Assembly (NCBI GenBank): GCA_015179025.1
Contig: WHUX01000119.1
Location: forward strand, 102,280 to 166,279
Direction of reading: 5' to 3'
Source of the DNA: Terfezia claveryi
Taxonomy: Eukaryota; Ascomycota; Pezizomycetes; Pezizales; Pezizaceae
Length of the DNA stretch: 64,000 bases
The position numbers and the translations under genes were made by a program. Positions 36,918-49,160 of the stretch are shown in pieces; within the stretch, counting starts at the first letter, position 1, and every line of letters starts with the position of its first letter. The notes beneath the pieces were generated by a model. The model saw nothing but the letters and a program-made list of their open reading frames with translations. It searched no databases and was not told the DNA's origin.

Positions 36918-37139
36918 TAGTGTGCGCCCCGAGGCGAGTCGAGGCGAGTTTTACAACTATTTTTCCGACTTAGTACCGACTCGCACCGGCCACATTTCTA
37001 GTAAAGCCATTTGCTGAGTACTCAGTGATTAACCGAGTCCTCGCCAAGAATTACGGACCGATATTTCACTGTGTACTTCGTTTCTGTCGTCACTAAATTA
37101 TTCTCTTGGCAGAGAAATTTGCTCGAGTTAGCTTTAAAC

Positions 37140-37438
37140 AATTCCGTGACAAGTTGAATTCCATGACAACTTGAGAGAATTCCGTGACAAGGAGCAATCC
37201 GTGACACCTAAGGAATCCGTGACAACTTGAGTTGATTCCGTGACAACTTTAGACAATTCCGTGACAACTACGGGACCGTGAGAAATGGCAACAATTCCAT
37301 GACAGTGCAAGCAATCTATAACAGTGGAGGCAATCCGTAACATGCAAGAAATCCGTGACGTGCAAGAAATCTGTGACAGTGACGGTGTGCTAAGTTAAAT
37401 TTGACCCGAATTATATACAGTATGTATGAGAACTCGTC
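37140..37438 (+). repeat. Left copy of the ~300-bp subterminal direct repeat
   Basis: Near-identical to 48652-48965 in the same orientation. It consists of a series of (aat)TCCGTGACA(a/g) words separated by short spacers, followed by GTGCTAAGTTAAATTTGACCC and ending in AACTCGTC. It lies downstream of the transposase gene. It may be a transposase-binding region, by analogy with hAT subterminal repeats. Confidence 0.85.
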
Positions 37439-37814
37439 CGCTGGCAGCATATAGCCGAGTTGGAGTATTGTAAAATAACCCCGCAAAAATTCAATCCTGA
37501 TATATTCCACATAAAACAAAGCAAACCTAACTCAAAAGACAATCTCAAGATACAAAAGAAACATTTTTTATCATAGCAAAATATGCCTGAACGCCAATTC
37601 GCTAACAAAACACGAAATCAAACCTAACACCACCTAAAAAAAAAAAACCCTAAATCTAAAAATATTCCCAACACACAAGAGAAACATTCTCTATCAAACA
37701 CCAATACTTAAACTGCAACATCCCTAGATACTCCTGATTACTGAGCCGGCAGTAATAATTACCATCCCACACGCCCTACATATCATCAAACCTCACATAA
37801 CATATACTACTTAC

Positions 37815-40784
37815 TCAGACTTTGTAGTTCCTATGGTGAGCAGGTCGTAGTTTCTTCTGAAACCTGGTTGCCATTAATAGCGTCAGGCTCACGGATGGTG
37901 ATGCGCGGCGCTTCACACTCTGACGTGGAGTTGAGGGGGATGGTGTTGCTTCTTGCTTGCGCAATACAGTTTGACGGAATGAGTTCGACAAGCCTGGCAT
38001 AGAATATTTCGTCAGACTATGTAATAGGCTTGTATTATCCAATGCTGAGTCTGCCAGGTCATTTTCCAGGTAATCCTCCATTAGACCACTCGCACCTGCA
38101 TCTATATCACAATCCATATCTGAATCCAAGTCCGTCGTTCCCTCTGCGGGATCTAGGGATTGTGGTACTATGTGGCGGAGGAAGTCTGCATCATAACTGA
38201 GAGCCTCGTTCTCCAGTATTACCTCACCTTCATCCAGATCGGCTATCCCTTCTTCCACATGTGCTGGTGTAATTTGTCCCTCTGGGGCTCCGTATTTCGC
38301 GTGTACGGTTGCCCACGATTTGGTTAGCATCAGCGCAGTTATCATCTCATGACCCATTCTGTTCCGGCTGTAAGGCAAAATATCTCTAGCACTACTGAAT
38401 ATTCGCTCCACTGGTACAGATGTCAGTGGAATACTCAATATGTCCCTTGCCATTCATGCCAGCACCGGAAATTCACTAGCATGGACTTTCCACCAGGAGA
38501 GGGGGCATTTCCCATTCAGTGTTGTTACAGGAATCGAAAGGTATCTTTTGATCTTGGGTACATCCTCCGAATGCACTGTTGTACGCTCTTGCAGTCGACG
38601 CATGATATAGGATTGTTCTCCATCATCGACTTGTGTATTAGGAACCGGAGGTTCTGGCGCGTACTTGGCGTAATTATGATCAAAATAATCTTCGAACTGA
38701 ACTCTGAGTACAGAATTTTTTAAGAATTGTCTTTCTGTATATTACGGAGGGTCTCGTGTTACAGAAAATCTCATGTTACGGAAAATTTCATGTCACAGAA
38801 AATCTGGTATTACGGAAAACATATTGGGCAACATAGGGAGGGGTAGAGTGAATTCAAACGTACTTGTAATACTCCACGTATGCAATAGAGTCACTGTTCT
38901 CCTGTGTCCCACTTGGATTTTGGATGGTGAGATTTCCCCAGTCCATGTACAAGGATAATTTCTTGGATAGATCAAGGATGGTGGCAAGGTTGTAGATGAG
39001 AGATTGTTTTTCAGTCCTAGAATAATACTTCTGGAACATCTGCTGACACACTTTCGTCACGGAGAGAAACTCTGGAGCCCAGGTAGGATTACCGGGAAGT
39101 TTGCGTATACGTTTCCACTATTTTTCTATGTGGTCGAAGATGTCATTGTAGATGAAGAACGCATTGTGTATGGTCACATACTGTCCTGTAGAGATAGCGT
39201 GAGTGTAATCCGACAAAGGTTTGAGGAAAATAGTAGCCTCCTGAACTTGGGTTCACTCCTCCTGACTCAACCACAACTCGGAGTACTTGTTCTCTGTCGT
39301 AGCTAGAGCAATCCATTGCTCAATATAGCACTGGAGCCTCAATGCTCGTGTAAGCATTTCAAATGTTGAGTTCCAGCGCGTTTTGACATCCTGGATGAGG
39401 CCCATGGGTGCTCGGGTGTCAGTTTGGAGTTCCTTGAATTGTGCCAGGCATTGTGGGCTGGCAACTATAGCCTTACAGAGCTCTCGAACCTGCATAAATT
39501 TTAGCAATAGGTTCCGTGACTCGTATTGGCCTTCCGTGACATGTCTGCCATTCCGTGACATGTTTGCCTTTCATGATTCACCTTTGTTTATTGAGCAGCA
39601 TGGAAAATGACTTACTTTGCAAACAGATCGCGCGAAAGTACCTACTGCATAGTTCTGTAGCGCTCTTATTGACGACTCGATTGGAGGTGTGGACCAGCTA
39701 GGATCTTCATTATCTGGGTTGGACTTGAGTGCTTTCATGAACTCGTTGCTGACCAAAGCAATCACATGTGCTAGGCAGGGAAGTCGGTATTGCAGTGGGT
39801 CCCATTTAGCACCGAAAACATTGGCTTGTAAATGCTTAGCCAACGCCGTGTTAACACTTACGTTATCTGAAACAACAGCCAAAACTCGGTTCGTGATGCC
39901 ATATTCCCATATTAATTTACTTAGATTGTTACCCAAGTGAATAGCGCTATGAGCTTCCCCACCTAGGTACTAGAATCCGATTGTATGTTGGCGCAGCTGC
40001 CAGTCCTGGTCAATATAATGAATTGTTGTCCCCATGAATGCTAACTTATTTGGAGAAGTTCAACAGTCTGTAGCCAGGTATAGGAATGTATCTCTCAGGA
40101 GACTTTTTTCAACTTTCACTTGAACTTCAGCTGCATAATTATGTACACCCCTGCGAAATGTAGTGGGAGAGGGGATATCAATTCCAGATCTAAGCAATTT
40201 CAGGAGATTCTGGAACTGCGGATGTTGGATAGTTCGGAAAGATAAGTTGGCGGCTATTACAGTTTTCATGAGTTCATGTTTGAAGGCATCATTACTAAAT
40301 TGCACTTGCGGGGATTGTGCGGCGAGAGATGTTGCCTAGGTGTAATGTAAGCTTGTCTCCTCAATTATTGTAGGGTAGGTATGGATTATATAATTACCTT
40401 CCCAAACAGGGTTGAAATGTCTTGATCCTTTCACCCACTAGCTGACCGACATCTCCCTGAGGTGAGGTGACCTCTCATGTGTGTGGTGCCTACATTGAAC
40501 GCACTAGGGTGTTGCAAGGTACCCTTGCAAGATAAACAAAATATGAAAGGCTCCTCGCTCTGGATCTTTGCACCTTGTCCAAAATGGGCCCAGTGTGCTG
40601 CCGTTCGAAGTTTAGAATCCCATCGGGGTGGATTCATATTGTTACTTTGCATCTCTTTGGCCAGATTTTCATGGAGCTTGCCTGCCCAGTCAGTAGTTTC
40701 CCACCATTCATCAAAAGGCGCAGATTGTTCTGCTTCCCACTGGAAAGCAGTTCCGCCTAATATTCTGGTGAGAGTGGAAACCAT
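37815..40784 (-). pseudogene. hAT transposase, four exons, RIP-type stops
   Basis: ATG at 40784. Exon 1 carries a BED-type finger (CLSC then HMRGH). Introns: 40336-40397, 39490-39615 and 38704-38863, all with GT..AG. Conserved blocks: IDIPSPTTFRRGV, LAVVSDNVSVNTALAKH, CLAHVIAL, DVKTRWNSTFEML, LATILDLSKKLSLYMDWG, and the C-terminal dimerisation block ARDILSIPLTSVPVERIFSSARDILPYSRNRM near 38455-38360. In-frame TGA or TAG codons at about 40431, 40060, 39964, 39253, 39118 and 38454 fall where Trp or Gln is expected (DC-TSPN, EE-TQV, LA-MARD), fitting RIP. The tail after the dimerisation block is acidic and ends at 37815. Confidence 0.88.
38704..38863 (-). other. Transposase intron built of 17-bp repeats
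   Basis: On the minus strand this intron (GTACGT donor, CAG acceptor) contains about four near-tandem 17-bp units of the type TTTTCTGTGACATGA / TTTTCCGTAACATGA, degenerate versions of the element's GTCACGGA motif. The next intron upstream (39490-39615) has three better copies of the motif. Confidence 0.6.
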
Positions 40785-41051
40785 TGAGCTAGAATAAGGT
40801 ACCTATGTGTACACTTGCAGATCGAGATACGTTCGAGTATGGGGCAAGATCGTCTGGCTATTGTATTCCTGGAAGTTGGCAATAGGTTGGGAAAGGCATT
40901 AGGGAAGAGATGATTATTTATTCACATTCTGCGACCAGTTGGCGCATGTCACGGATAACGCAAGCTTGTCACGGATTCTATGGAAGACATTCCATTGGTA
41001 CCTGAGATGCGTTCCATGATAACGCAAATTTATATACTTCAATAAGCATGG

Positions 41052-43338
41052 TCAATCATGCTGTAGCGCATCTACAGCACGCCAAACCCAAACCCAATCC
41101 AACCGCGCAACTGTCCAATCATTCCAAAAAGGGTCCCTGATGTCTTTGTGGTCATCATGTGAGTCGTCATCATTGTCATCACCTGAATCCTCTGAGCTGT
41201 GGGATGACCACAAGAGCTCAGTTATACAGTCAGAGCTTTCGCTGCAGGAAGACGATGAATCACTATAACCAGAATCGCAGTCCACATTGTCCTCCATCAT
41301 GTCGTCTTCAGAGTCATTCTCGAGTTCGGACTCAGTCGGGCTAGCGTTATCAATTGGTCTGGGGCTGTCACTGACATCACTTTCTGGTAGCTCTGATATA
41401 TCATCGGGGATATTGATCAAATCCAGTTGGAGTATGCTGCATCTCAATGGCCAATCGGGACTGGCTGTAAGTTCCATAATCTCTCGAGGTCTAGACATAG
41501 TTAGCCCGACGCTCTGTCTATATGCAAGGATTAGAAATACACCTACTTGAAGACTGAAGCCAGAACTCTTGCCCACAACATAATACTGTTATTCTAGGTG
41601 GGGGATGCCATTGCGGTGATATATACACTGGACACCGAATGATTGGCCCATCAGGGATCCGGTGGGTCTGGGAGAGTATCTAGCATGTGGTGAGTCGAGA
41701 CCTCAATGTTTTAGCACAGAGTTAACTTACCGATGGGAATCGACAATCTTGGCATAAACCCCATGATTGTTGGCTGCCACTCAGGTAATGGTGGAAAAGG
41801 GTAACCCATAACAAATCATAGAGAGTATAGTCATCCAGGTAAAAGATTTATGCACTACTATGCAAGCTCATGGGGAATACTAGATCACACCCATCAAACC
41901 AAATCCTCTCTAGAAGCTCCATGGCTACCGCTCGGGAGGTAATCCTGTTGGGGTCGAATCGGTCCATAACCAACTGGGTGGACTGGGACGTTACCAATTC
42001 CGTAACCTGTAGACTAAGGATGTGTCGTAGTCCTGCAGTATCTCTCCATAGCTGCCGGAACTCTTCGAAAGTGAATTCATCTTCTAGATTGTAGTATTCG
42101 GGCATATTGTGAGGTAGGGTTCTTGGCATAACGCTCATTGTAATATGGTCGGTGAGAATTACAGCCCTGATGAACTATATATAAGCAAAACTCCAGTTAA
42201 CAGTTCTAGAAAGAATCCCTAAATGGCAATGTCCTCTTTTGGTAGATTGTCTACCTCTAATTCTGACGTAGAATAGGAGGACAAAAGTAGACTAGTCCGC
42301 AGCTAATAATAATTGTATCCAAAGGACCTGGCTAGCATTAGTCGTGGGAAAGACCTGCATGGCCCATCTGGGACAAGGCATAAGATTCGTGACAACACAT
42401 CCGTGACAAGACATCTGTGACAAGACATCCGTGACAAGACATCCGTGACAAAATAACCCGTCCGTGACAAAGAAAATATCCGTGACAAGAAAAAATATCT
42501 ATGACTACATAAGTAAAGCACAAGATACCACCAAATGGAAGTACCATCCTGATCCACTCCAACCTGGTGTAGAACTGCCACAATGGTTCACAATAGTACC
42601 TCATCTACGAAAGTGATGAGTCGATGGCGATGAGTCGATGGCATAATCTATACCATAAGAGTTAGTTTAGCCGGTGGGAGGTAGGCTGGCAGGTAAAGCG
42701 TTCTCTGTCTCATGTAGTAACGGTCAATGCATCTTCTGAATAGTACGGTTAATCCTGATATAGCTAGTTGTTCACAACACATCGACTGATCAATTGCTGT
42801 ACAGGCAATAATGTGGTTCATCACTTGCCGAGGTATAGTTCCAGGCAACGCAGGCAAGTTATTGTGCCAGTTCCGAAACAGGTAGTACATGCCTAGGTCT
42901 GAAGGAAATGACCAGAGACATTGCTTGGGCCAGCATCTGCTGGTGCCAGATAAATTCGTCGTGTCCCCACTTTACCACTCTATTCACTTCCTGTCCTCCA
43001 TTATCTGCATCTCCCTACCCTTTTGTCATTCCGCACTAAGCCACCTCCGATCCATTATTACTTCACCACAACAAAATATATCGTCAAGGTATGACTTCCA
43101 TACTTTTTTGCTTGCCCCATATGAGGTTGAGTACATATCCCGTATTATTTGAGTAAGTGCAATAGTCATGTGAGCTTGTCCCATTTTGTGCGGTTCCACT
43201 GAACAGATGATGATGATCGTATTTTCCTGTTATCTTGAGCGGGTAATGTTTGAAGCACCTGGCAACCACACGTACTGCAAGGTTGAGTGGTTTGTGGTGC
43301 TGGAAACTGATCTGCGGTGAGGAACAGGAAAAGGGCAT
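41052..43338 (-). CDS. Unrecognised multi-exon gene in the hAT element, acidic C-terminus
   Basis: Minus-strand coding segments that look like exons: about 43338-43084 (AVRVVARCFKHYPLKITGKY), 42890-42648 (MYYLFRNWHNNLPALPGTIP..), 42138-41848 (EDEFTFEEFRQLWRDTAGLRHIL..), a short one near 41840-41733 ending before GTAAGTTA, and 41576-41052. The last ends in an Asp/Ser/Glu-rich tail followed by FWNDWTVARLDWVWVW. Short introns with GTAAG-type donors fit, but I did not resolve every junction. The 42.37-42.50 kb gap, probably an intron, holds six TCCGTGAC-type motifs. No domain recognised; it could be an accessory transposition or nuclear protein. The start is uncertain. Confidence 0.4.
42371..42505 (+). 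repeat. TCCGTGACAA motif cluster
   Basis: Seven or eight copies of (C)ATCCGTGACAAGA-type words at about 13-bp spacing. Other clusters of the same motif in the element are at 39523-39562, 40947-41025, 44247-44300, 44412-44436 and 46201-46252, besides the two terminal direct repeats. Confidence 0.85.
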
Positions 43339-43419
43339 ATAGCGGTATTGTGTGGTAACTCACTTGATTTGACACAACCTTATTTTCGGCTTGCAGCTAA
43401 TCTTTAACCCCAAACTTCC

Positions 43420-43983
43420 AGTGATTATCAAACCCGATACCGTGTGCGAAATCAGTCACGATGTCCAATACTAGAAGTACCTGCCACACCTAGCAAAGCC
43501 GACACTGACAGTGATCATGTTAGAGATGGTAGAAGAGTTTTGCAGGAAATAGAGGTGGAGATGCAGGAGGGCAATGCTGACTCAAGAGTTGATAAAGAGA
43601 ATGAGGAGCCACTCGATGAAACTCCAAGGCAACCCCCATACACCCAATATGAACATTCCCAACCTGTACAACTTTCCCTGTCATTTGCCACCCCCCCTGT
43701 TATTGATGTCTCACGTGCTCCTCGTCAGCAGCAGAATTCCATAAATCAGCCCCTAAATCTTTCTTTGCCTGCAGTTGGGACTATTAACCCAAGAAGGATA
43801 AGGTGGTCCAAAGACCGGTCAACCCGGCGACGCCAGGTTCGCAAACAAAAGCGATAGCAAAGACAGCAGGAAGCACAAGTCATCGAGGAGGCCACTGTGG
43901 GGGGAAGTCTTAGTATTGAGATTGGGCCGGGCTCTTCTGATTTTCATTTTGGCCCGATATCCTTCCATGTCAACCAAAATTAA
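43420..43983 (+). CDS. Unrecognised basic/proline-glutamine-rich protein
   Basis: An open frame follows a splice acceptor-like AG at 43418-43420 and runs to a TAG at 43855, beyond which the same frame continues (QRQQEAQVIEEATVGG) to a TAA near 43983; the TAG is a possible CAG-to-TAG change. Composition: an acidic middle (EIEVEMQEGN..DKENEEPLDE), a PxQ-rich stretch, and an arginine-rich tail (SKDRSTRRRQVRKQKR) that looks like a nuclear-localisation or nucleic-acid-binding segment. No ATG was found in this exon, so an upstream exon is needed. Function unknown. Confidence 0.4.
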
Positions 43984-44246
43984 ACATGGACCTATTTATT
44001 TATATATAGACTTGAGTGTAAGCAGTTATGTGCACGCCTCGTGGTGACGCTAGTTGCATGGCCGTGTTCGGTTAATGGCATCCAGGTTTGCTTGTAAACA
44101 AAGAATTCATTTATTTGCACGAAAAAAGGGTTTTAGTGGTTATCTTCCATTTATCTACCAGGTCCAAGGAATTGTCAGCACTTGTACGGTGATTTGTATC
44201 TATATAATCTGCTGTGAAGATAACGAAGGGGTATGTGCAAAGCCAT

Positions 44247-44436
44247 GTCACGGATGCTGTCACGGAGGATGTCACAGAGGCTGTGACGGAGGTCGTGTCA
44301 GGAAATCTGAAGTTAGCTTATTCACTAACTATTAGTTATCTCAATCACAAATATTCCCATCTGAATAACTAGCAGCTGTGAAGATAACGAAGGGGTATGT
44401 ATTGCAAAGTCGTGTCACGGAGGCTGTCACGGAGGT
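44247..44436 (+). repeat. Two GTCACGGA motif clusters upstream of the charged-protein gene
   Basis: Here the motif appears in the opposite strand sense (GTCACGGATGCTGTCACGGAGG) from the clusters at 37-43 kb. The two clusters sit in a roughly 150-bp direct repeat containing GCTGTGAAGATAACGAAGGGGTATGT (44209 and 44377). Confidence 0.8.
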
Positions 44437-44503
44437 CGTGTGAAGTGGAATGACGTTGAGTCCAAAGTAGAAAGACTGACGAAGTTTGTGTTTAAGATCT
44501 GCA

Positions 44504-46158
44504 ATGCCAGACCATCCTCAGAAGAAAAGTAAGACAACTGGTAAAGCGCCAGCCAGCCCGGCACCAGAGTCTGCCATGCAGAAAAAAAAGTCAACTCGAG
44601 AAGGACCAGCTAGTTCAGCGGGGAAGAGGCTGGAGCTTATTCAGAAAGAAGGCATGACAACTCGCAAAGCGCCAGCAGCACAGACAACAGAGCATGTTCC
44701 GAAAAAAAGGAAGACAAGAGCAGAATTATGACCCTCAATTGAGGATGTTACAAGAAGAAGGAGGACAAGAGCCGAACTAGCCCTAGTCCCCCCCCAGTTG
44801 AAGATGTTCCAACAAGAAGAAGGACAAGAGCCGAACTAGCCTTCTACCCACCCCCAATTGCGGATGTTCCAAGAACAAGGACAGCCGAACTAACTGAGGA
44901 TGTTCCTAAAAAAAGAAACACAAGTGCGGGATTAGCCATCCCATCCCCAAGGAATCTTTACGCCAAATATGCCAACTTCCCATGGGGCTCGCGGGAGTTC
45001 AATCCAGATACCGAATTTAGTGGGGGAGGAATGCATGGGCACTTCCACCAATCCCCACACGAAAAAAATTCGAGAGACCACAAGAAACTGCTTGGCCCCC
45101 CTTTATCGTGGGAGCGTGCCAAGGACTGGAAAAGACAAAAAGTCAACAGGGTACTCAAAGCAGGATTAAGGAGGCGGAACACGCTACGATAACTGGAAGG
45201 GCAATCGGCACTCGGAGAAACCAGTTAAACGATGTTGAACTAGGAAACTTCGAAAGAGTTGTCCAAAGGACATGGACCTATGTTCATCCGCAAAAGGGCA
45301 TATATTCTCTACCAGTGGTATCAACTCTCGGATGACCAGAAGAGATTATACTTGGAATTGGAGGAGCAACAAGAGCTCCCCGATTTCCAAATTCCAAATG
45401 GGGAATTGGAAGCAATAGGGGTCAAGCCAGTACAGCAGTTCACAGTCATCATTAACGTTGTACCGATAAACCGCCTAGCCAATGCCTGATTCCAAGAGCC
45501 AACTCCACTAGTCACGACACCCGACCCTGGAGCTACACGTAACACAGGGGCCAATATAACTAGTGACACAGGTGCCAACAAAACTAGTGATAAAGGCCCT
45601 AATGTACCCGAGGGTCAGATGCTGACCATTCAAGAGGAATTAGCCGAGGGGGGTGCCGACGATTGCTTAAGTGATGAGGACATTGGAACGGATATTGAAG
45701 AGGTAGGTGCATCCTCACGCTTGATGTAAAGAACTTTACTCACCAGTGGATAGGATTGCGATGACAAACGCAACAAGCAAGATGATGACGAAGATACAGG
45801 ACTATGGGGCAGATGGGAAGCTTCGGAGGGTTCTACCAAAGAAGAAGAAGCTCAACTAACTGAATCTGACTCCAGCAAACGGGGAAAGGGGTTGTTGGTA
45901 CCTGGCAGAGATAGGCCCACCGAATTTCTTCCAAGCGGTACAGAAGATGAGGATTATAGTGACTCCACTGAGGAGGACGATACCGAAGTCAATAAACGAG
46001 TATATAGGCGGATTTTGCGTCGAGGTACTGCAATGACAACTACCAAGAACAATCAAGAGGACAAAGGCGAGAAGCAAGTCGCAGGCGATAATGGGGGGAA
46101 AGATGAGCGAGAAGATGCAGATGAGGAAGAGGGTGAGGATGAGGACAAAGCTGACTAG
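44504..46158 (+). CDS. Highly charged nuclear-type protein with RRRTRAEL repeats, HMG-box-like segment and acidic tail
   Basis: Begins at ATG 44504 with a Lys/Pro-rich segment (HPQKKSKTTGKAPASP). From 44700 to 44920 imperfect ~65-bp repeats encode DVP..RRRTRAELA-type units, with frame breaks between units. At 45300-45400 a segment reading YQWYQLSDDQKRLYLELEEQQ resembles the third helix of an HMG box (W..LSDEEK..Y). A putative intron (donor GTAGGT near 45701, acceptor CACCAG near 45757) leads to a long Asp/Glu-rich C-terminus ending DEDKAD at 46158. Several in-frame breaks (for example the TGA at 44729) suggest damage or unresolved introns. The chromatin-related role is inferred from composition only. 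Confidence 0.45.
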
Positions 46159-46871
46159 GGAGCAAGGAGCAAAATGGGAAATATTTTGGATTTGTTTTTA
46201 CTGTCACAGATGAAGGACTTGTCACGGATGGGAAACTTGTCACGGATGCCGTAAATAGTCGTTATCAACTTTCTGAGGTGTAATTGTACTACTATTTTTG
46301 TGTCTTTGATTGTATATTTTATTGTGTCTTTCATTGCGTATGTGTTGGATGTCTATGGGCTGATGCAAGTTTTTTTTTTGGGTGTTTACGGGGTGGGGTG
46401 ATGCAATAGTTTTTATCTTTGTATATTTTTTTGATGTCTACTCCGGACTGATGGTATTTTCTTTGTATGTTTTTTTGATGTCTACAGGCTTTGTTTTGGG
46501 CTCATGCTAGAGGTATTTTGTTTCTGTTTTTGTTTTGTCCAATACTAGTGTTTGTTCTATCTGAAATATTAGAAGGTACGTTTTTTTATTCCTCCCTTTG
46601 TTACTAGTGAGCTAACTGATGACGGCCAACACAAATTAGTGAGGATAGAGAGAAACAATGAATTATATTTTGTTCTAGAGCTCATTGGTCTATTTGTGGT
46701 CCACTGCGTACCCTCGGGAACATACATATACAAGCAAACTTACTATCCCAAATCTCAGATTCTTCGAACCTCCGACTTCTGCAACCTTCAGGTTTGGAAT
46801 AACACTTACCCCCAGATACAGATAACACTACCCCCAGATACAGATAACACTTACCCCCAGATACAGATATA
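46159..46871. other. Intergenic spacer with motif cluster and GAYCC tandem repeat
   Basis: Holds three GTCAC(G/A)GATG motifs (46201-46252), T-rich sequence, and three copies of an 18-22-bp unit CAGATACAGATAACAC(T)TACCCC just before the histone-like gene (46812-46868). No gene seen. Confidence 0.5.
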
Positions 46872-47549
46872 ATGGCGAGAACAAAACAGAAACCCAGAAA
46901 TATCAAGACCATAGTGCCCCCAGCGACGGTCCACCCCCCAGGTGCCCCCGCCCCCAAGTGGCCGCACCCCTAAGTGGCCGCACCCGAAATGGCCCCGGCG
47001 ATAGTCCCCCCTCCCCAAGTGGCCCCGCCATAGGCTCACAGGCTAGAGCAGTTCCCAGAAGAAGAAGGGTCAATCGAGGACGTAAGAACTCCTAAGCTCA
47101 ATGCCAGTTCAATTTGACCTTGGAATGCTAAGTGTGCTGTCAGTGGCCATTGTCAGACAGATACGGAGACAACAGGGCAGCGCAAAGCTGATAATACCGA
47201 AGACTGCGTTCCGACGGTTGTGCAGAGAAATTGTACAAGACGTGAACAATGAATACAACGCTATGCCGAGGATTCTCGGGGACGGACCGATGTTGAAAGA
47301 ATTGAATTCTCGCGACAAATGCTCTCCAAGAGTCTACGGAGGCATATATGCATGAATTTTTTACAGGTAATAAGGCATAGATGGTGAGTAGAAAATTGTC
47401 AGAATAATACTAACATGGCTGATGCAATAGCGATCAACCTTTTGGCAACCCAGAGTGGGGAGCGAAACCCACCACGCCAAACAATTCTTCGCAGGGATGT
47501 GAGGTTGTGGCGTCAAGTGGAAGAGAATCGGCTATCCGGGGTAATGTGA
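46872..47549 (+). CDS. Histone H3-like gene carried by the hAT element
   Basis: ATG at 46872 opens with MARTKQ, the exact H3 N-terminus. Proposed introns: 46942-47033, 47082-47143, and 47367-47430 (with branch point TACTAAC at 47408-47414). Splicing gives a 39-residue tail ending PRRRRVNRG (H3: 44 residues ending YRPG). It then continues, ungapped against H3, as LAIVRQIRRQQGSAKL / IIPKTAFRRLCREIVQD; about half the residues match H3 alphaN-alpha1. Alpha2 follows as ALQESTEAYMHEFF. After the last intron comes NLLA, then TILRRDVRLWRQV, which matches the alpha3 block TIMPKDIQLARRI. Lys4 is kept but the K9/K14 region is not. Alpha1 and alpha2 are in different frames, so loop 1 (47242-47320) hides an intron or a small indel. 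It could be CENP-A-like or simply divergent H3. Confidence 0.75.
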
Positions 47550-47821
47550 CCCACATACACGCACCGTTTTCCACCCACACCAGCAACACCAGAACAGCAG
47601 ACGCACAAGAACAAGCACCAGCACCAGCACCAGAACCAGCACCGGCACTAGCACAAGCACAAGCACCAGAACCAGCACCAGAACCAGCACCAGAACCAGC
47701 ACCAGCACTAGCACAAGCACCAGACCAGCACCAGAACCAGCAGATGCACAAGACAAGCACTAGCACCAGCACCAGAACCAGCACCAGAACCAGCACCAGC
47801 ACCAGAACCAGCACCAGCACC

Positions 47822-47856
<35 letters not shown>

Positions 47857-48136
47857 CTGCACAAGCACGAGCACGAGCTCGAGCACACCAGCGCCAGCAC
47901 CAGAACCAGGACCAGCAGCTCCTATTGGGGCGGATACTTCTTCGTCATCGTCTAGAAGAAGTATTAGAACAAGAACCTTGTCATCGTCTTCTTCCTCATC
48001 TTCTGACAAGGAAGGAGAACAATCGGAGGAACGGGGACGACAAGGAGAAGAACAACAGGTAATTGAAGGATCACCTCGAACACAAGATTCCATATTACAG
48101 CCCCAGGAAGATCATCGAAGATGTTTTATTAATTGA
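47550..48136 (+). CDS. Low-complexity Ala-Pro / Ser-Thr-rich open frame
   Basis: An open frame of about 209 codons (in-frame from 47507, overlapping the end of the H3-like gene in another frame; no ATG at the start) encodes AP/EPAP repeats, then alternating Thr-Ser, then a serine block and a charged tail (SDKEGEQSEERGRQGEEQQ). The first two parts come from a GCACCA/GCACGA tandem array (47600-47890). It could be a separate protein, a spliced C-terminal extension of the H3-like gene (a GTAATG donor lies at 47541), or merely a repeat array. The end near 48136 has non-repetitive sequence, which slightly favours real coding. Confidence 0.35.
47600..47890 (+). repeat. GCACCA/GCACGA hexanucleotide array
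   Basis: Imperfect 6-bp and 12-bp tandem units (agcaccagcaccagaaccag, agcacgagcacg). Open on both strands because of the period. Confidence 0.9.
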
Positions 48137-48651
48137 GCTTTGCATGTTTTTTGTGCCCCGGGTTGATTGGGGGTAATGAATGATCTGATAAGGGCAGGAA
48201 CAAGGTTACAGAAACTAATTCGTTTGTATATAGGCTTGAGAATAGCTCATGTTATTCGGATCGATATGGGACTGAACATTGGACACGCAAGGAAGAGGAA
48301 GGAGGTAGAAAGGGAAGAGTGAAAAGGGTAGGGTTATCGGTGGTATTATTTTTTGGCTTGTATTATATTTTAGGGAAAAGAGTGTAGGCTTGTTGGTAGC
48401 ATTTTTTTTTTAGTTGTGTTTTCTGTTATTTTTTAATTGTGTTATCAATTGGGGAAGAAGGAAGTTGGAATGAAGGAAGTTGGAATCGGATTCATTTGTA
48501 TTTTTAATGTAGTTGTTTTATGAGTTGTAATTGGGTCATGGGATTTTCAGAAGCAAAGGAGTTCGTGAATGAGGTTATGATTAGGAATGGCGGATGGCAT
48601 GAAGGAACTATTACAATTTTGAGTTAGTAGGGTTGTGTTACAAAATGGGAG
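48137..48651. other. Spacer in the hAT element
   Basis: T-rich and G-rich intergenic sequence with no gene seen; it contains a short direct repeat (GAAGGAAGTTGGAAT). Confidence 0.4.
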
Positions 48652-48965
48652 AATTCCGTGACAAGTTGAATTCCGTGACAACTTGAGAGAATTCCGTGAC
48701 AAGGAGCAATCCGTGACACCTAAGGAATCCGTGACAACTTGAGTTGATTCTACTTGAGTTGATTCCGTGACAACTTTAGACAATTCCGTGACAACTACGG
48801 GACCGTGAGAAATGGCGACAATTCCATGACAGTGCAAGCAATCCATAACAGTGGAGGCAATCCGTGACGTGCAAGAAATCCGTGACGTGCAAGAAATCCG
48901 TGACAGTGACGGTGTGCTAAGTTAAATTTGACCCGAATTATATACAGTATGTATGAGAACTCGTC
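48652..48965 (+). repeat. Right copy of the ~300-bp subterminal direct repeat
   Basis: Matches 37140-37438 in direct orientation, with a 15-bp internal tandem duplication (CTACTTGAGTTGATT near 48750) and slightly better preserved TCCGTGAC motifs (for example ATTCCGTGACAAC where the left copy has ATTCCATGACAAC). Confidence 0.85.
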
Positions 48966-49160
48966 TAGAGTCAGGCACCAGCACAAGTACTAGATCAATA
49001 ACACTAAGGCTTGGTGAGTACTCGTCGGCTACTCGGTGCTGGCCGAGTAATCCAGAGCAGCGAATAACCGACTCGCCGGTTAGAAGAGTAGAGAAAAACC
49101 GACTCGCCGGTGCGAGTCTTGGTGAGGCGGTTCGAGAAAAATCGCCTGCGGCGCACACTA

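Follow-up and report, generated by a model that had tools for sequence, protein, structure and literature searches.

The sequence comparisons strongly indicate that a hAT transposon family of Terfezia claveryi carries a divergent histone of the H3 family (H3L) as a long-standing resident gene. What is new here is that H3L appears as an old, selected gene of the element, the occurrence of an H3 gene on a hAT transposon being already published. The window, i.e. the whole stretch of 64,000 nucleotides that was analysed, is located on contig C23 of the 72.6-Mb T. claveryi assembly (794 contigs), which was searched for further copies. In the window, H3L lies within an element comprising the following features:

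36918..49160, no strand assigned: whole hAT element of subfamily A2, 12,243 bp, with homologues at C355:1412-12970 and C773:772295-784890
36918..36928, forward strand: left terminal inverted repeat, exact core of 11 bp, TAGTGTGCGCC
37815..40802, reverse strand: hAT transposase, broken into several open stretches in the window copy, conserved with C355 and C773
41052..42174, reverse strand: gene 2, its protein being conserved across the subfamilies of the element, as seen by tblastx against C355 and C773
43408..43857, forward strand: conserved open stretch that may be either a gene of its own or an exon of gene 3 lying upstream
44743..46158, forward strand: gene 3, with a basic N-terminus and an acidic C-terminus, conserved with C355 and C773
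49150..49160, reverse strand: right terminal inverted repeat, exact core of 11 bp, TAGTGTGCGCC

The transposase region matched the Pfam dimerisation domain Dimer_Tnp_hAT (PF05699) at window positions 37815-38453 with 4.5e-11, which is over the cut-off, and showed a weak match to DUF659, below the cut-off, at 39571-39969. The same layout, with transposase and gene 2 on one strand and gene 3 and H3L on the other, is common to the window and the elements on contigs C355 (11.6 kb) and C773 (12.6 kb), and the H3L elements of this genome span 11.6-12.8 kb. The inverted repeats of the two ends are identical over 11 bp in the window and C355, are longer in C773 and contain mismatches in C54 and C21. 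Besides the window and C355, the far ends were sought in five elements (C773, C54, C21, C62 and C419). An exact 8-bp target-site duplication was determined for C773 (TGAGTATT) and C54 (TTCTCAAC) and one with seven of eight identical positions for C21; the search found one end only for C62 and C419, and no matching 8-bp duplication was present for the window and C355 copies. Since H3L lies inside three full elements with target-site duplications (C773, C54 and C21), it moves with them. With the dimerisation domain, the short inverted repeats and the 8-bp duplications all found, the element belongs to the hAT superfamily. The hAT context claimed in an earlier, sequence-only reading of this DNA was thus correct, and the matching terminal inverted repeats place H3L in the same element as the transposase.

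Two direct repeats with an identity of 93% (window 37140-37438 and 48652-48965) are located near both element ends and are rich in TCCGTGACA motifs; these are perhaps transposase-binding subterminal repeats. On contig C165 (15300-24349, locus L052), an A element is directly followed, at its right end, by B-element sequence that starts in the middle of gene 3. Two H3L elements from different subfamilies abut here, in what appears to be a nested insertion.

Genes 2 and 3 gave no Pfam match above the cut-off, no Pfam family was found for the stretch at 43408..43857, and the Pfam search yielded no chaperone homology for gene 3. The middle part of gene 3 and its relatives is conserved (WGTSTNPHTRKIRE, ERAKDWKRQK), and the longer models comprise an acidic C-terminus. 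A stretch of gene 3 with the pattern YILYxWYxLSxEQxRFYLEL resembles an HMG-box helix, for which neither Pfam nor the predicted model of low confidence (pLDDT 45) gave confirmation.

The gene structure of H3L in the window, based on the alignment with its relatives, is as follows:

46872..47081, forward strand: H3L exon 1, tail MARTKQKPRNIKTIV..., with a stop and a frame disruption in the window copy
47082..47143, forward strand: H3L intron 1 (GTAAGA...CTGTCAG), aligned in the four relatives compared, with the donor AT instead of GT in L007
47144..47366, forward strand: H3L exon 2 with alphaN, alpha1, the long loop 1 and alpha2, two single bases missing compared to the relatives
47367..47430, forward strand: H3L intron 2 with a TACTAAC branch point
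47431..47549, forward strand: H3L exon 3 with loop 2 and alpha3, QTILRRDVRLWRQVEE

The single pieces named in the sequence-only reading were all recovered, namely the MARTKQ start at 46872, the alphaN-alpha1 piece VAIVRQIRRQQGSAKLIIPKTAFRRLCREIVQDVN at 47143-47247, alpha2 (ALQESTEAYMHEFF) and alpha3 (TILRRDVRLWRQV) as well as TACTAAC in the last intron. The intron positions are common to the window copy and the four relatives aligned, and a donor-like GTAATG site near the end of exon 3, which is similar in most of the aligned relatives, might connect to a further, putative exon. The joining of these pieces into one spliced product, as proposed in that reading, did not hold for the window. Alpha1 and alpha2 sit in different frames, while the relatives comprise a single uninterrupted exon there; exon 1 reaches an in-frame stop, and by eye no canonical splice acceptor was found at the needed place. 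Since the frames cannot be joined by canonical splicing, the proposed product cannot come from this copy. An intact spliced gene in the window is therefore ruled out, and the window H3L is one decayed member of a family.

The spliced H3L of C355 encodes a continuous protein from the tail through alpha3. This intact copy matched the Pfam family Histone (PF00125) over residues 34-156 with 8.4e-12, over the cut-off, whereas the 53-aa alphaN-alpha1 reading of the window reached an E-value of 8.4e-4 and 20 bits, which is under the 26.4-bit cut-off; the expected histone profile match was accordingly obtained for the relative and not for the window itself. Compared to the PDB, 59 of the best 60 of 158 matches of the C355 protein were named H3 and one 'histone domain-containing protein', the best with 6.6e-11. 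Judged by the profile match over the whole fold in the intact C355 copy, H3L is a member of the histone H3 family. For the H3L protein P0003 of a second lineage (D, described below), the predicted model showed a histone fold (pLDDT 73).

With a 76-aa exon-2 query of a relative, 106 matches were obtained in the genome, a number that cannot be due to chance. After collapsing and removal of host H3, these correspond to about 98 H3L loci, in agreement with the expectation that other copies of the element carry the gene. For the transposase 142 matches were found genome-wide, for gene 2 99 and for gene 3 137; since the search reads exon by exon and scores the best candidates only (140 of 234 for the transposase, 130 of 183 for gene 3), all counts are lower bounds. 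At 35 of the 98 loci a transposase was located on the opposite strand, 4-14 kb upstream of H3L, compared to 3 of 98 on the other side and 0 of 98 on the same strand in mirror controls. Gene 3 was found just upstream of H3L at 62 loci and together with the transposase at 33. Neither partner was within range at 34 loci, and short contigs miss partners.

A second lineage, D, keeps the gene order of the element and comprises its own H3L. Its H3L was found at seven places (C27, C90, C245, C746, C667, C572 and C143, the last being just 42% identical). A D-type gene 3 adjoins six of them and a D-type transposase five, by eye in the usual order, and the D transposases share 34-41% of their residues with the A query. 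The T. claveryi protein BGX38DRAFT_1145583 (P0003) is the lineage D H3L encoded on contig C27. Further relatives of H3L were present on public contigs (P0001, P0002, P0004-P0006, P0008, P0009 and P0012). Among the 59 relatives of gene 3, those named by organism originate from T. claveryi (including P0143), T. boudieri and Tirmania nivea only. P0127 (gene 3) and P0006 (H3L) each lie on a contig of 17,257 bases, which suggests that they are neighbours.

Exon 2 could be aligned gap-free in 49 distinct sequences, of which 28 contain no stop. Five between-subfamily pairs of A1, A2 and A3 representatives showed a dN/dS of 0.08-0.20, in accordance with the purifying selection predicted beforehand. 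For A compared to B, values of 0.16-0.17 were determined in two pairs and were undefined in two others, the synonymous sites being saturated, while the pair A2a-A2b comprised five differences only, too few to inform dN/dS. For each of six pairs, all of 1000 codon bootstraps gave a pN smaller than pS. The differences between the A1 and A2 representatives were distributed 11/8/32 over codon positions 1, 2 and 3, whereas the summed changes of recent A1 copies compared to C355 amounted to 77/63/64. Recent B copies showed 51/29/62 and thus no even spread. The low dN/dS between subfamilies combined with the even decay of recent A1 copies can be explained by a gene that is kept functional in the lineages founding the subfamilies and decays after insertion. 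These data are strong evidence, at the level of sequence, that H3L is held under purifying selection in the lineages giving rise to the subfamilies.

The decay itself is dominated by C-to-T changes, which make up 2226 of 2789 substitutions in 19 A1-type loci when C355 is taken as the starting state. Per site, C-to-T decreased from CpG (3.5) via CpA (1.9) and CpC (0.7) to CpT (0.3), a pattern that fits RIP plus methylation-linked deamination. Given this strong decay of the copies, H3L does not shield resting copies from mutation. A strict test for intactness, which required a start, GT and AG at both introns and exons open as far as alpha3, was passed by 4 of 49 distinct copies (A1 on C355 and C253, B on C773 and C246); it works with one fixed splice phase and intron length and may miss functional variants, e.g. 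those with longer tails. Counted separately, exon 2 was open in 28 copies, exon 1 was open with a GT donor in 11 and exon 3 was open in 21. Many decayed beside few intact copies are usual for transposons under such decay.

The 45 of 49 distinct copies failing this test, with their C-to-T changes, are also what a passive transduplication would leave, in which the coding sequence of a host H3 is captured and copied as mere cargo. This is how the case of Pseudocercospora fijiensis is read (PMC6710886), which gives a precedent, and the function of H3L is so far inferred only. Mere cargo is nonetheless disfavoured and in our view improbable. It disagrees with the low dN/dS between A1-A3 as opposed to the even decay of recent A1 copies, and with a gene order kept across element lineages whose transposases have diverged as far as those of A and D.

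The origin of H3L points in the same direction. By eye, the introns of H3L are placed differently from those of host H3. In a tree of 23 rows, H3L and its metagenome relatives were located on one side of a branch with a support of 95/93, apart from CENP-A (98/98); the H3 rows were weakly grouped (42/73), and the node joining D to the remaining H3L rows came with a long-branch warning. In an AU test of 13 rows, which left out D, P0004, P0005, P0008, P0009 and others, a grouping of H3L with host H3 was weakly rejected (p 0.02), while a grouping with CENP-A was not rejected (p 0.23). The separate clade, the AU result for H3 and the differing intron places count against a recent capture of host H3, and with it against cargo. 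A captured and diverged histone of the H3 or CENP-A type, as originally suggested, is hence right in so far as such a gene resides in the hAT element, whereas 'captured' suggests a recent event, which an old gene with a clade of its own does not fit. The phylogeny against host H3 and CENP-A proposed at the time recovered that clade and left the grouping with CENP-A standing in the AU test.

Host H3 was represented by a single gene of the canonical type among those found (L002:1247-1600, contig C153). Its tail is unusual, with KQIKQQFQQAAHKVARKVAHTSNSG replacing the common sequence KQLASKAARKSAPSTGG, so that the context of K27 reads ARKV; this may be an assembly error. In Orbilia oligospora, the protein P0045 (TWF788_006562) is H3-like, starts with MARTK, shares DVTLWKQI with alpha3 of H3L and is encoded on a 6.5-kb contig. 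It may be a candidate for another element-borne histone. Despite the common DVTLWKQI, it was not accepted as a member of the H3L clade, being placed outside the transposon rows on a long branch. The motif RLCRE is not specific to H3L and was dropped as a marker, being present in further H3-like proteins, e.g. P0037 and P0063.

Compared to canonical H3, alphaN, alpha1, alpha2 and alpha3 of H3L align end to end, and many H3L copies share the ARTKQ start, whereas the loops are lengthened and the intron places differ. The A1 protein showed an identity of 36% to the H3 row and of 31% to host CENP-A. Between REI and LQ, H3 comprises 17 residues, host CENP-A 25, D 28, P0001 29 and A1, B and P0002 31, so that loop 1 of H3L exceeds that of H3 by 11-14 residues. 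In A and B, 4-5 residues are inserted in loop 2. At the position of R63, a DNA contact in H3, A, B and D all show Pro. Based on this Pro and the longer loop 1, nucleosome formation by H3L is not assured.

The tails were compared in 40 rows, i.e. 39 of the 49 distinct exon-2 sequences plus the window. Of these, 18 started with MARTKQ and 10 with MAGTKQ, the start pattern used favouring starts of the M..TK type. The ARK of H3 is replaced by ARN or PRN in the tails of A1-A3, which places Asn at K9. With PKKN at tail positions 7-10 in B and GRK in D, the absence of K9 is not universal. The claim that K4 is kept and the K9 context changed, in a genome with C-to-T decay of repeats, was borne out. 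In shuffling, scores as high were reached by 3 of 2000 shuffles for the tail of B compared to H3, and by 12 of 2000 for P0001 and 27 of 2000 for D compared to host CENP-A, while the tails of A1 and A2 showed no likeness to host CENP-A or H3 beyond chance. The sequence TGRKTIVG is common to D and host CENP-A; the database model P0003 omits that part.

The likeness to CENP-A/Cnp1 in histone fold, long loop 1 and TGRKTIVG could be explained by a CENP-A-derived H3L that steers the chromatin or the insertion of the element to centromere-like regions. In favour of this are the length of loop 1 (28-31 residues in H3L compared to 25 in host CENP-A and 17 in H3), the tails of P0001 and D, the AU result for CENP-A, and a Foldseek search with the P0003 model, in which the top three matches were Cnp1, the best being S. 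pombe Cnp1, followed by H3. H3L differs from CENP-A in lying outside its clade, in the ARTKQ start of many copies, in a still longer loop 1 and in the loop-2 insertion of A and B. On a clear descent from CENP-A the tree and the tail evidence disagree, and a centromere or target-site mimic is considered unlikely.

Instead of forming a stable nucleosome component, H3L might act as a decoy that ties up H4, chaperones or the enzymes modifying tails and relaxes silencing in trans. The H3-like tail start combined with the long loop 1 and the Pro at R63 would fit such a role, as would the linked gene 3 with its acidic C-terminus. Since the whole of exon 2, including alpha2, is constrained, a decoy appears quite unlikely. 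Histone H3 also occurs outside nucleosomes, namely in UAF, and a chain of the UAF-TBP-promoter complex (7z0o) was among the top structure matches. Together with the co-residence of H3L and transposase, this could point to a histone fold recruited as a DNA-binding subunit into the transposition complex. An architectural factor of this kind would leave the H3-like tail start unexplained and is regarded as very improbable indeed.

hAT-borne H3 genes were already in print, and in this respect the sequence-only reading was overstated. Both published systems with which the family can be compared refer to them as transduplication (PMC3538342, PMC6710886). For Pyrenophora tritici-repentis, Manning et al. 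2013 (PMC3538342) describe an H3L element with a 5.6-kb long and a 2.3-kb short form and 26 very similar H3L genes as a recent expansion, with ESTs for the H3-like gene, which was nearest overall to bona fide Candida H3 genes with a tail close to ordinary H3. Compared by this description, the Terfezia elements are set apart by their size of 11.6-12.8 kb, several old subfamilies, the long loop 1 and selection. In Pseudocercospora fijiensis and five relatives, Dhillon et al. 2019 (PMC6710886) report a hAT element of about 9.5 kb with an 8-bp target-site duplication, C-to-T decay and hundreds of H3-like copies, the genera in Mycosphaerellaceae being Pseudocercospora, Cercospora and Sphaerulina. 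Ten copies were 51-55% identical to the host H3 coding sequence; the copies are intron-free, all inactive and interpreted as transcript capture (PMC6710886). The Terfezia family is similar in the hAT type, the 8-bp duplication and the C-to-T decay, whereas, again by description, it differs in its introns, in few intact and many partly open copies and in purifying selection. A 16-residue insertion in one of two H3 copies in PMC6710886 resembles the Terfezia loop-1 insertion in size. In the open-licence literature, searched without selection on such genes as a term, no other papers on hAT-borne H3 and none on the Terfezia family were found.

Altogether, a selected H3L that serves variant nucleosomes of the element's own is the best explanation overall, to which we give an even chance. 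The H3L protein would pair with host H4 and enter nucleosomes, with a preference for the DNA of the element or for sites of insertion; the acidic gene-3 protein might assist in the manner of a histone chaperone. Its tail, keeping the K4 end with ARTKQ in many copies, could take activating K4 marks. Since the tail of A1-A3 has no K9, nucleosomes of this kind would escape the K9 methylation leading to silencing, so that transcription and mobility of the element would be preserved. Both the nucleosome step and the anti-silencing step are hypothetical, and every step past a selected histone-fold protein is one that we infer. More tentatively, a lineage of eukaryotic DNA transposons may have adopted a histone of the H3 family as an essential gene, with K4-competent nucleosomes of its own that lack K9 in A1-A3 and comprise an enlarged loop 1, and possibly with its own acidic chaperone.

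Histones belong to the proteins under the strongest constraint, and it is through histone marks that mobile elements are normally silenced. The long preservation of H3L by selection suggests that the transposon uses it and does not carry it as accidental cargo. A transposon with an H3 variant of its own, maintained by selection, would counter silencing directly at the molecular level. It would also make it possible to test whether the nucleosomes on an element's DNA can be determined by the element itself. If this is true, the two published 'accidental' H3 captures would be recast as possibly functional, and other fungal hAT-H3 cases would represent the same or a convergent counter-silencing strategy and not accidental transduplication.
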